Origin: Hoplostethus atlanticus
Lineage: Eukaryota; Chordata; Actinopteri; Trachichthyiformes; Trachichthyidae
Assembly: GCA_034670405.1 (NCBI GenBank)
Contig: JAXDDX010000023.1
Location: 4,797,501 to 4,861,500, forward strand
DNA length: 64,000 nt
Direction: 5' to 3'
Under the pieces are notes generated by a model that ran no database searches, was not told the DNA's origin, and worked only from the letters and a program-made list of their open reading frames with translations. The position numbers and the translations under genes were made by a program. Shown here one piece after another: positions 9,098 to 60,599 of this stretch. How positions within the stretch are numbered: the first letter of the stretch is position 1; each line of letters opens with the position of its first letter.

Positions 9098-9298
9098 GAC
9101 TGCCCCCAGATCCTGCCCTCCACCCAGATCTACATCCCCGTGGGGGTGACCAAGCCCATCACCCTCGCCGCTAAGAACCTGCCCCAGCCCCAGTCGGGAC
9201 AGAGGAACTACGAATGTGTCTTCCACATCCAGGGGGAGACCCACAGTGTCACCGCCCTTCGCTTCAACAGCACCTCCATCCAGTGCCAGAAAACCTCG
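9098..9298 (+). CDS. plxna1: plexin-A1 window exon 1 (IPT2, first part)
   Basis: 67 codons, phase 0 at both ends. It opens [17 protein letters not shown] and includes [18 protein letters not shown], a near-invariant plexin-A signature lying between PSI2 and PSI3. By the ten-domain ectodomain scheme this is the second IPT domain. FNSTS contains an N-glycosylation sequon, consistent with an extracellular position. The acceptor is a pyrimidine tract ending gtgcag and the donor is gtgagt. It lies about 700 residues into a typical plexin-A1, so everything 5' of it is outside the window. Assignment to plexin-A is very secure. Confidence 0.96.
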
Positions 9299-29492: not shown

Positions 29493-30606
29493 GAGCAGAT
29501 ACACCTAACACGTCTTGGTACCCACACACTCTTTATGCCTGGTTGTAACCCCACTCCATAGCCATTAAAATGCTTCTCAACATTTCTCTTACATTTCCAC
29601 AGTCTGTTGACAGCGGGAACAGTCGAATCTGTTACAGTCGAATCTGCTAACATCACAACCGGCCAACAAAAATACAAATTAGATCTGCGGTCTCCAAATA
29701 CGTGGTTTGGGACGATGTTTTGTACTGGCATGGTTTTGCCGCTTAGCCCCGCCTCTCCCTGTGCATCTCTATTTGTGTGTGTCTGTGTACATGAGCTACC
29801 TGGATGCCCATTTCTACTTTCTTTATCTACAGAAGGCAATCGTTTATCAGTGGGTGTATGAATTTATAGCTACATGTGTGGTTGCGTGTGCACGTGAGCC
29901 TCATGCACGTGCACATAATAGTGTACAGGGTGAACAAGAGAGCAAGGGTTAGAGCCCGATCACACACCATTCATCTTCGTTTAGGGGCAGCGAGGTCAAA
30001 GTGTCACCTTACCCCATTCAACCAACCTTCCCCCCACACGTAGGAGGGCTGAGACAAATGACCCAACACACACACTCACACACTCACACACGCACAGCGT
30101 TAATCCAATTAGCCCTAGCGCTAATCATGCTAGTAATGACTGATGACCACGGGGGCCATTGTCTGGGTCGCGGGCTAGATGAATGGGAGTGTGATTAGTG
30201 ACTGGGCTAGCCTCAGGTAGCCATTAGCACCTCCGCACACCTTTCAAGGACCTCTAGGGGAACGAGGGGTAGTAATTGTGTTGGGAGGATTAATCGTCAC
30301 AAGGTTAAATGAGAGATTTAAGTAAGGGCCTGGTGGGTGGGTCCGGGTTAAGTGCGCGACTTGTCAGATTGTGCGTGTTTTGACTGAGTTGAGGTGGCGC
30401 TAATGGATCCGCGGTCATTTTTCACCTCGCTTAATCGAAGCGGCATGTATTTGATTTCAATCTGAATGGGGGAAATGGCCTGAACGACTTTCGTGAACTG
30501 TGAAATGACTCGCGCCGTGCTGAAACCATTGGATAAAGGCGTCCATTATGCTGTGTATGTTGGTGTGAGTAACTTTGTCCCCTCTTGCTTTGCTCCTCTT
30601 GTCCAG
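24646..30606 (+). other. intron 3
   Basis: 6 kb, repeat-rich: CA 25184-25225, GT 25343-25378, 26045-26082 and 26149-26188, AC 27275-27307, GT 27468-27502 and 27679-27713, C run 28052-28065, CT 28641-28667, GT 29280-29317 and 29459-29488. A pyrimidine-rich block spans about 27790-28100. A unique AT-rich stretch at about 28250-28510 and TAGC-rich patches at 26640-26710 and 30085-30230 lack microsatellites. No exon found. Confidence 0.8.
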
Positions 30607-30758
30607 CTGTTTCCAGAGACCGGGCCCAGACAGGGGGGAACCATGCTGACCATCACCGGGGAGAACCTGGGCTTGCAGTTCAAAGACATCCAGAACGGGG
30701 TGCGCATCGGCAAGGTGGCCTGCAACCCTCAGGAGGACCAGTACATCAGCGCTGAGCA
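30607..30758 (+). CDS. plxna1: plexin-A1 window exon 4 (IPT3, first part)
   Basis: 152 bases, phase 0 to 2. It encodes [20 protein letters not shown], then [19 protein letters not shown] and DQYISAE plus two bases of Gln. PxxGPxxGGTxLTITGxNL is the classic start of an IPT/TIG immunoglobulin-like fold shared by plexins and MET-family receptors. The acceptor is ttgtccag and the donor gtatgt. The CAG codon is completed by the first base of exon 5, giving ISAEQIVC across the junction as in the family. Confidence 0.96.
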
Positions 30759-31582
30759 GTATGTTGACGCCCATCTCTTTTCCCTCTCTGCTCTTGTTCG
30801 CTGTCTTTCTGTGTTGTTTCTGTGACTCTTTTTCTTTCCCTCTCTGTCCAATAGTGATGAGTACTAAACACAACACACACTTACTCTCTCACAGACCTAT
30901 AGGTTTCAGCAACGCCTCCAAAGGTTAAACGCCGCTTTCCCCTTCAAGCAAAACCAATTCCCTGCAAGCGGGCACACTGTGTGTTTGCCTGCTACACCTC
31001 CCTGGCTGCTGAAATGTGAAGCTCGTGCAAATCAAACAGCGGTACTGGTGGCACCGATAGTCGCCTGCATAGATGGAAACACACACTACATGGAAATGTC
31101 TGCATTAAGGCCTGCATTAAAACCGCTAGATGAGTTATACAGTTGGGGATCACAGCTGGAGACGTTCCCCAATATTTTGTTTCCAACTATGTAACCGTCA
31201 CTTATAGACAAGCGCTCCGTTCGGTTAGCTCTGCAGTCCCAGCTGAATGTGTTTCCTCTGTTCCCCTCACCAACAAGGAAACATGAGGAATGTGATTTTG
31301 ATGGTTTGACAGTCAGGACAATAGAACGGCGCACAGCCCTCGCCAGCGATGACAGGTGTCCCCAAAATGGGTTTAGAAATATGCTGGCGCCGTATCAACC
31401 TCGATTTAGTGCGGCCGCGTCGCGGCGTTCATACAGAGCGTCGTGTTTCAGCGTTAGAGTAGCGGTGGCTCTATCCTGGAACATTTTCTTTACCTCATTC
31501 ATTTTGTCCTAATGATTACATCCAAAACCACAAAGGTGTCGACATATTTAACCCCGTCACGCCCGCTATACTGCCGTGGCTC

Positions 31583-36363: not shown

Positions 36364-36531
36364 GCGGACCAGCAAGGAGATCGTGTGCGTGACTCCGGCG
36401 GGCCAGGCCCCGGGCCCCACCCCGGTCATGGTGGACATCAACTCCGCTGAGCTGAGGAACCCGGAGGTCAAGTTCAACTACACCGACGATCCCACCATCC
36501 TCAAGATCGAGCCTGACTGGAGCATCGCCAG
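36364..36531 (+). CDS. plxna1: plexin-A1 window exon 7 (IPT4 end, IPT5 start)
   Basis: 168 bases, phase 2 to 2. It encodes [39 protein letters not shown] and [16 protein letters not shown] plus [17 protein letters not shown] is the linker between IPT4 and IPT5 and includes a sequon (NYT). The trailing AG needs one more base to make Ser, expected to be followed by Gly-Gly-Thr of the IPT5 signature in the next exon. That next exon is not visible: the following recognised exon (40682) is in phase 0, so direct joining gives a frameshift and an early TGA. Confidence 0.95.
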
Positions 36532-37521
36532 GTGAGGGGACGCGTCCTATAGTTCATCTGTGGGTCTTTACATTATGTATCCTATACATCGACACACACT
36601 TCCTTGTTTGATCTACGATTCTGCTTGATGTGCATCTATAGAGCAGATCCATAAATACATTAAAGGAGAAGAATCCCACCCATCATTTATTAATGGGTGC
36701 TTGTGGTGGTTGGCCCGTACGTTATATGTTATCCTGCAGGAGCGAGGCCAGCTAATCTGAAATAGGAACTGTAGGGAGAAGACGGTGAATGTATTATTCA
36801 GTCGGCGTACTCCCTGGCTTAGTCTCGGAGCAAAACTAAGTAAACACTCCTCTCCGCTTTCAGGCTCGTCTCGCATTCAAAGGCCTTTTTTCCTTTTTAT
36901 TCTGTTTATCTTTACGTTTTCAAAAGTAAATCTTTGAGAGCGGGGAACAGCGGGGGAAAGGAGGCTCCCGGAGCACGTTGATGAGCTGCGGTGGAGATGC
37001 ATCTGTAAATATGACTTGACTTATTGAAATGAGACGACATAGCCACGGGAAGGTTTCCCATGCAAACACAAGCTGTGTTGTGGGGGAGCCTCCAAATGCT
37101 AATGGGCTCGCTAGCATGACCTAGAAACTCCTTCACTCCTCGGCTCACATCGACACACACATCTTTCTGTTGACTGTCTCATTGACTCCTGCAGAACTTC
37201 TCGTCCGTTGTTTAGATCTTGCTGTTGCTCTCATCCCTTGTGAAACTTTCCCACATTGTTTACTACGTGCTACGCTACGATCATTTATCAGACCATTTCA
37301 TTTTGATGTTTCGTAAGTGTCACGCTGCCATTTACACACGACGCCTCTGACCTCCTGAGGAAACGACACGGGTATCTGAGTGGCAGTTGCATCTCTCGGG
37401 ACGACCCCAAAACAGATTTAGCTGCCAGGCAAAATGTCCACCGGGGAGCAGGACAATCTACCGCGCTGGCGTCACGGGGGGGTCGAGGTGAAAATGGGAG
37501 CAGTGTTCTTCAAACTCTGCA

Positions 37522-37559
37522 GGGAGGAGGAGGAGGAGGAGGAGGAGGAGGAGGAGGAG
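37522..37559 (+). repeat. GGA triplet repeat
   Basis: Twelve GGA/GAG units; the + strand could form stacked purine structures. Confidence 0.95.
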
Positions 37560-38283
37560 TCCCCCATCATGCAACAGAGGTGTGAGCAGGACAAGACGTC
37601 TCATTTGGAAAAGGGATGAGTGAAAGGTAGAGGGCAGGAGAGGCAAACAAAAAAACAACAAATGCTTGCTCCAGGCTCTAAGGGACGGGCAGGGGGAGTG
37701 GGGGCGGGGAATGACCTCACTGCTCACCTCCATGTTTGGTGTTTCGCTCAGCTCTCCCAGAGGTAGTGCATGGTTCTCCGGGCCAGTCGCGCCTGTATTT
37801 ACCGAGGTATTTCGTGGCTATGTCCCCCTCGGTGACCCTGGTGCTTAGAGCCGTGCCGCTGCAGCCCCAAAACACCAATCTGACACGACTCAGCCTTGTT
37901 CCACTCCCGGCGCAGGGTGTTAGGAAGAAACCGATGTAGGTGCTCAGGCGAACAACAGACACATGGCACTGCAGAAATTGTATGACACCATATCCTGTTT
38001 ACACAATACATTACACAGTGGGCATTATGTGATGCTTACCCTAGAGAATTGCCCTCTTGGAGTCTTGGCACATGGAAGCACAGCGGTTTCACTGATTTTG
38101 AGCACAGCTGTCTCCACATGCTCACATGTCTACCGCTTGCTGACCATTTCATTCAGGCAGCTGTATGAAACTCGGCCAGTAGGGAGATCTTTCTCCTGTC
38201 TTCTGGCCAGACCCTCTGCACCCACCTCAACATCTGTCTGTCCCCCCAACACCCCTCAATGGCCCTAACCCCTGTTCAGTGGA

Positions 38284-38321
<38 letters not shown>

Positions 38322-38476
38322 GCCAGCTCCCCAGCCCCCCGATCCACCTCCCAGTACAAAGCCCACTCTCACCCCAAGGCCTCGGGGCTGGCCTCACCTC
38401 CCTCCCCCAGACACCACTCCATCTGGCCTGCACAAACCACAGCCAACTCCCTGGATATGAATGTTTTTTCTTGGCT

Positions 38477-38477
<1 letters not shown>

Positions 38478-38549
<72 letters not shown>
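38478..38549 (+). repeat. GT microsatellite, 36 units
   Basis: Uninterrupted over 72 bases. Confidence 0.97.
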
Positions 38550-38556
<7 letters not shown>

Positions 38557-40681
38557 CACATTGCAGGACACTCTAATTCCACCACGGGCTGGTGTTTGGC
38601 AGGTTAGCTAGCAAGTCCTCAGTTACTCCTCGGAGGAAAGATAGTAGCCAGTTTTTTCTGTCTGAGTTGTTTTGGTAGATTCTTGGGTTTTGGGGCACAT
38701 GAGCAGTATTACAGTAATACTCGATGTGTTCAAGGGTTATGCTACTGCTACCCATCGCTCCCCCCGTACCTGTTGTTGAATGAACCATGTTGACTCACTG
38801 TTTTCAGTTTGTATGTTGTATGTAGGCTGTATATAGGTGCTGTCGGATACCTCACATCAGGTAAAGTTCAGCTCATGCCAGCAGAGTTAACTGGCGGTTG
38901 TAGGGAATAGTTGACATTCAACCATGTACAACGTCATTGTGACGTACCAGTTCAACTTCTACATGGTCTAAAAGTGTGTCTGAAGAATGTCAGTCAGGTA
39001 CAAGATGCATTTGCACTGACCTCCAGCACACTTCTATATACGGTTAACAGCTATTTAACGTTCGGCCCTCGAAGAGATTACTAACATTATAACATTACGA
39101 AATGGTGCTGTTTTCACCGACTTCAGAAGCCATATTAGCGGTTTAAATGCCAAGGGCCCTTTCTAGCGTTCCACTGAGAAAGCTTGCATTACTAACATTA
39201 CTCAACATCACGCTGAAAGTAGGGTGCAATGCATCAAGCAGGCGAGGGAAACTACAGACATGATGCAATAGTATTAACATTAAATGCAAATGAGGGCCTC
39301 TAGGTCCCACTGATGAAATTTTTTACATTGTTAACTCCTGCACGCTTCTGATAGTTATGCTCTGTCTCCCTCGAGTGGAAATGGACATTACGAGACATCC
39401 TGGACATAGGTGAACCATTACGAGCAGTGCAAGTGGTCTGTAGTGTTCCCCCCTGATTTTTGAAATGTATATTTTCCGTCTGTGAATGTGTGGTGGGATC
39501 CCGTACTGATGCTCTTTCTCCTCTTTTATCCTGTTCCTTCTCATCTGGCAACAAACAGATGGCTCAAGACAGTCAACACTGCGTTGAACCAACACACACA
39601 TGACATACACACAATGACGATTGGGGTATGGGACATTAGATTCTCTCTTTCTTCTTCCTCTCTCTCTCTTTCTGGAAAAACAGATGCTCAGACAGACACA
39701 CCTGGGACACACACACACACACACACACACACCTGACCCGTCGGTCACCCAGCCAAGGGCCTATTTTCTGTGTTTTTGATGTTGAATTTCCTTTTAGCAG
39801 TTTAACCTTTGAAATGTCAACCAGCAATAAAGCCGCTCTGGCAAATCCCTCCTCTTCACCTTCACCACCACAGGGCTTGGCTAACCTTTCTCCCATCCTC
39901 CCATCACTCTCCTCCTCCCTCCCCTCTACCTGGAGAAATACCTTCTTTCCTTTTGTCCCTCTCTGCATTTTTTTTTTTATTTCCCTTGGTCAAATACATG
40001 TTTTTTCATTGACATATAATCAAAGTTTTCTTTTCCGTGGCCTTGTGGTTCCACACACCCTGTTGGGATGGTAAATTGACTGTGACATGTAGCATGTAAT
40101 GTAAGGCTAAAGGCATATTGTGAAACCACCCCGGTGTCTCTTTAGCCATGCCGTGTTACGGTTGTTGGCTAGTGGCTAACCTCACCTGTTTCCTTCTACG
40201 CCATCACGGTCTAATTTCTTCATCAGTGACTGAGTTGAGTGTCGAGCCCCACGGGGGATTTCAACATGATATCAACACTGATTACAGCACCGGTGTTATT
40301 AAGTCTGCCTGTTCCTCATTATGTCATTAAGGAGACATTCAATCACCCCGCGTCACAACAACAACATGCCTCGGTCTGAACTCTTTTAGCCGTCATACGT
40401 ATTGTTGACCACTTAGGTTTTAGTTAGCATGATCTTGTATACAAGGATTTTCTATTTCTCCACATCAGTCAAACATAATTCAACTCTGTATTTCTTACAT
40501 ACTCTCCCTCCTTTCCTCGTTCCCTTTCCTTCTGTCTCACTGCCTTCGACTCCCCCTTGCTATTTCTCTTGCTTCCTCTATCGTTCCCTCTCTATCTGCC
40601 CTTTTTATTCACTCTCTCTATATATATATATATATCTCCTTCATTGTCTTTCTAACTCTTGTTCCCTCCTCCTCTCTCTAG

Positions 40682-40918
40682 AACTGTACGGTTGTCAACA
40701 ACACCGTGATGATGTGTCTGGCGCCGTCTGTGGTCGGATCCGACAAGGGCTTCTCCGAGGCGGGCAGCAGTCCGGATGAGATCGGCTTCGTCATGGACGA
40801 CGTGCACTCTGTGCTGGTGGTCAACGAGAGCTTCAGCTACCACCCGGACCCTGTGTTCGAACCCCTGAGCTCCACGGGCATGCTGGAGCTGAAGCCCAGC
40901 TCGCCGCTCATCCTCAAG
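40682..40918 (+). CDS. plxna1: plexin-A1 window exon 8 (IPT5 end, IPT6 start)
   Basis: 79 codons, phase 0 at both ends. It begins [18 protein letters not shown], continues [18 protein letters not shown], and ends [20 protein letters not shown] plus K. [15 protein letters not shown] and [13 protein letters not shown] are plexin-A blocks. Sequons NCT, NNT and NES mark an extracellular part. The insert [14 protein letters not shown] is variable among paralogs. Acceptor ctctctag, donor gtaagg. Confidence 0.95.

Positions 40919-57835: not shown

Positions 57836-60599
<2,764 letters not shown>

Follow-up and report, generated by a model that had tools for sequence, protein, structure and literature searches.

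Is the exon that is missing from a plexin-A1-type gene of Hoplostethus atlanticus absent from the animal or only from its assembly? The gene lies in the window, the whole stretch of 64,000 bases analysed here (C23:4797501-4861500), and is one of two plexin-A1-type genes in a genome of 632.8 Mb and 1161 contigs, the other being located on C40. The window gene appears to encode a receptor for nerve guidance, and the presence of two such genes suggests a ray-finned fish. According to the original prediction, exon 7 ends in phase 2, exon 8 begins in phase 0, and the exon of 3n+1 bases that should stand between them is found on neither strand of the interval; a local assembly deletion, a strongly diverged exon and a real lesion were offered as explanations. 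The absence of an IPT5 exon from the intron between exons 7 and 8 is confirmed by the analyses described below, and it is probably a local deletion in the assembly, rather than a loss in the animal, that accounts for it.

A plexin-A1-type gene broken between exons 7 and 8

Twenty-one exons were recognised on the plus strand between positions 9098, where the first of them starts, and 61626 (summed length, 3342 nt), by their similarity to the C40 paralogue together with splice sites, which are canonical at the recognised exons. Apart from the IPT5 exon, all exons of the C40 counterpart (exons 1-21) are present. The best solved-structure match of exons 7 and 8 is Plexin-A1, ahead of Plexin-A2 and A4 (Table 1). 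In line with this identity, a Pfam scan of exons 1-16 identifies TIG_2, TIG, PSI, Plexin_cytopl (the cytoplasmic RasGAP) and Plexin_RBD (RhoGTPase-binding), i.e., the plexin-A1 arrangement of PSI and IPT/TIG outside and RhoGTPase-binding and RasGAP inside, with exons 17-21 being judged via their match to C40. A complete IPT5, including the segment that begins GGT in Plexin-A1, is lacking, which is taken as an assembly defect and not as evidence against orthology.

The exon order agrees with that of the C40 paralogue, which has one intron more, within the counterpart of window exon 12. Intron loss at this point was considered as a sign of a copied gene and dropped, as the plexin genes on C67 and C140 are also intronless there; because both run through the point without interruption, the extra C40 intron looks derived. 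Exons 8, 12 and 17 each have an interrupted match in the C140 plexin, apparently because of extra introns.

Table 1. Features around the missing exon, in window positions; the IPT repeat numbers of exons 7 and 8 are those that we assume
Feature	Position	Strand	Remarks
Exon 7 (end of IPT4, start of IPT5)	36364..36531	+	Ends in phase 2 (GCC AG), donor gtgagg; PDB match Plexin-A1, E 1.4e-20
Intron 7-8, lacking the expected 94-nt IPT5 exon	36532..40681	+	Covered by profile, alignment and splice-candidate scans
Open stretch, 67 nt	38411..38477	+	Right phase, good-looking splice sites, no IPT5 similarity; probably chance
GT array	38478..38556	+	39.5 units, 97% matches; possible, unproven site of assembly collapse
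Exon 8 (rest of IPT5, start of IPT6)	40682..40918	+	Starts in phase 0 (ctctag, then AAC TGT); PDB match Plexin-A1, E 4.7e-27
Exon 17 (cytoplasmic region)	57836..58027	+	One-base insertion relative to the C40 paralogue; second frame break of the gene

The reading frame is intact through exons 1-7, breaks where phase 2 meets phase 0 and resumes with exon 8; the only other frame break found in the gene is the insertion within exon 17. The exon boundaries thus bear out the predicted phases, and the intron separating exon 7 from exon 8 coincides exactly with the interval 36532-40681, flanked by a donor and an acceptor that are both canonical and intact. Joining exon 7 directly to exon 8 produces the frameshift that had been foreseen, with nine new residues followed by TGA TGA. 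Read-through was rejected on either side: the frame of exon 7 reaches a TGA just past its donor, and a TAG precedes the frame of exon 8.

The expected exon in paralogous loci

Five other plexin loci of this genome (C40, C140, C35, C20 and C67) carry the exon that starts IPT5, in each case 94 nt long (1 nt plus 31 codons), with AG/GT sites, phase 2 to 0 and a peptide of the form G-x-T-x-x-x-V-[TS]-G-T-N-L. These loci were found via the IPT5 exon itself, and a plexin gene without it would not appear in such searches. They agree with the postulated 3n+1 exon, the size of which had been guessed slightly too high, at about 97 bases. Neighbouring plexin exons are present on both sides in C40, C140 and C67 and on the exon 8 side only in C35, and none lies within the 3.1 kb inspected in C20. 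In C40 and C140 the IPT5 exon lies near an AC/TG run.

Searches of the interval and the window

A protein profile was built from four paralogous exons and one mouse segment, with the C40 exon held out. This profile recovers the C40 exon at 54 bits, and its best match in the six frames of 36532-40681 reaches 3.1 bits (E 12). Over the full 64,000 bases, on either strand, the profile's best match (9.0 bits, 30484-30822) overlapped exon 4, that is, another IPT repeat, and a location of the exon elsewhere in the window or on the other strand was rejected. A DNA profile run over the whole window gave 13 matches listed at E up to 100, none of them in the interval. Smith-Waterman alignment of the five known exons, on two strands, to the interval gave scores that were equalled by 44-99 of 100 shuffles in nine of ten comparisons; the tenth was equalled by only 4 of 100, a result that points against absence. 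Additionally, 459 phase-compatible open candidates bounded by AG and GT/GC (61-148 nt; 199 on the plus and 260 on the minus strand) were scored with a profile that included the C40 exon, which itself obtained 73.4 bits; the best scores were 0.7 bits on the plus and 2.4 bits on the minus strand. Profiles, alignments and splice candidates therefore agree with the original prediction that neither strand of the interval holds the exon.

On the evidence of these three kinds of scan, the strongly diverged exon that had been suggested is unlikely. More broadly, it is quite improbable that the exon is present but diverged past recognition, or replaced by an unrelated exon such as the one that 38411-38477 could form. 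At the protein level, identity to the paralogue is still 75% for exon 7 and 63-85% for exon 8, and divergence of the IPT5 exon alone would be unexpected. As for replacement, the splice sites of 38411-38477 sum to 19.4, compared with 18.6 for the highest sum in the 17 other introns that reach 300 bases and with 8.8 + 7.1 for the real C40 IPT5 exon, and six candidates in the interval pass both site thresholds (1.45 per kb, versus 0.31 over the other introns). However, the peptide of this open stretch shows no resemblance to IPT5 and falls outside the 8 best of the plus-strand candidates, the stretch would supply 22 full codons and not 31, intron 11 is denser in candidates (2.01 per kb), and pyrimidine- and GT-rich stretches produce such sites by chance, which is probably how 38411-38477 arose. 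It is very doubtful indeed that the canonical exon was truly lost and a short unrelated exon of this kind spliced in, a change that would alter the receptor extracellularly at IPT5. The open stretch ends at the GT array and outscores every other splice candidate of the 18 introns tested.

Searches of the whole genome

A first protein query, assembled in part from PDB alignments, yielded nine matches (E up to 10), comprising the five IPT5 exons, exon 7 of the window and C40 genes, and matches on C93 (E 0.02) and C1 (E 5.4). The peptide of the C40 exon gave six, the same five exons and one match at E 2.2. Neither of these whole-genome protein searches, both of which recover the five known IPT5 exons, shows a sixth; each scores only the top candidates of a permissive first pass. 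An orphan copy on another contig was rejected; the five IPT5 exons found are those of C40, C140, C35, C20 and C67. As DNA, the C40 exon matched itself and nothing else, not even the further four known exons, so that this search is insensitive and its result weak evidence. A second, haplotypic copy of the intron was not found for 36532-38476 or 38560-39460, each of which matched only itself in the genome.

Constraint on the gene and the case for a real loss

Between the window gene and C40, dN/dS is 0.239 in exons 1, 2, 4, 6 and 7 (250 codons, without exons 3 and 5, which differ in length), 0.059 in exons 8-21 (739 codons, not counting a few at insertions and at the end of exon 13) and 0.031 in exons 10-21 (613 codons), pairwise values that reflect old history and would not reveal a recent loss. 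An old pseudogene could explain two frame breaks in one gene, but the low dN/dS of exons 10-21 (0.031) and the canonical splice sites of the recognised exons make this extremely unlikely. Of the real lesion that had been offered as an explanation, the old form consequently misfits the strong downstream constraint, and the recent form is the likelier of the two.

If the exon was instead removed by a genuine deletion of recent date, whether fixed or heterozygous in the individual sequenced, the allele would be a null whose receptor is cut short within IPT5, and the C40 paralogue might compensate for it. Such an event would agree with the clean absence of the exon, with the failure to find a second intron copy in the two stretches searched, with the existence of a duplicate plexin-A1 gene on C40 and with the second frame break in exon 17. 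It is nonetheless unlikely, given the strong constraint downstream and the lack of an excess of changes there on the window lineage: amino-acid changes downstream of the gap number 7 in the window gene versus 8 in C40 with C140 as outgroup, and 6 versus 7 with C67. In the upstream exons the corresponding counts are 7 versus 9 (outgroup C140) and 10 versus 3 (outgroup C67), the last of which counts against an assembly error. Moreover, C40 carries three one-base insertions in this assembly, and if the sequence were taken literally, neither copy would be functional.

One-base insertions and the quality of the assembly

One-base coding insertions were seen in exon 17 of the window gene (1 of 21 exons), in exons 1, 8 and 13 of C40 (3 of 22) and in exon 12 of C67 (1 of 13), but in none of the 19 exons of C140, indels of the paralogues being visible only where a match was split or shortened. 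All five frame-breaking changes look like insertions, a pattern that is associated with uncorrected long reads. Their presence in three of the four plexin genes examined suggests base errors of the assembly, a much likelier explanation than the breakage of three plexin genes in a single animal. In its account of false gene losses, PMC9516821 places missing exons among the most frequent kinds in assemblies, with frameshifts as another type; it deals with earlier assemblies built on reads of short or intermediate length, and missing exons were fewest in the only fish that it includes.

We infer that the loss lies in the assembly: the animal's gene would very probably contain a normal IPT5 exon of 94 nt, which the assembly would have lost along with part of the surrounding intron 7-8 sequence. 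Among the three explanations originally offered, local assembly deletion fits best, because five loci keep the exon at identical length and phase, the flanking sites are intact and the constraint downstream is strong, and because the one-base insertions point to base errors and missing exons of this kind are documented in PMC9516821. Positive signs of misassembly were not found, neither as an N anywhere in the window nor as a second intron copy in the two stretches searched. The GT array, the start of which had been placed correctly but which had been read as 36 units ending at 38549, is a natural suspect as the place of collapse. It is a possible site and not an established one, because the window holds 14 arrays with a TRF score of at least 100 (16 rows; the GT array and 13 others) and only one missing exon.

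Implications and comparison with known systems

The main value of the case is as a caution: calling plexin-A1 lost or a pseudogene from this assembly would very likely be an error, and a receptor truncated by automatic annotation is a further risk. If the loss were real, it would provide a natural null of one plexin-A1 duplicate. That reduced plexin-A1 has consequences in a fish is indicated by the knockdown experiments in PMC8460429, in which depletion of zebrafish plxna1a led to brain and eye defects.

The window gene resembles vertebrate PLXNA1 and zebrafish plxna1a and plxna1b in its best structure match and its Pfam domains, and differs from Plexin-A1 in lacking the IPT5 exon and in carrying the one-base insertion in exon 17. 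Whereas the errors described in PMC9516821 were checked with reads and newer assemblies, the present one was read from the assembly alone. The likeness to the missing-exon losses described there lies in a single exon without a match, here in two protein searches of the assembly, within a gene that is otherwise recognisable and constrained, albeit with a further one-base insertion.
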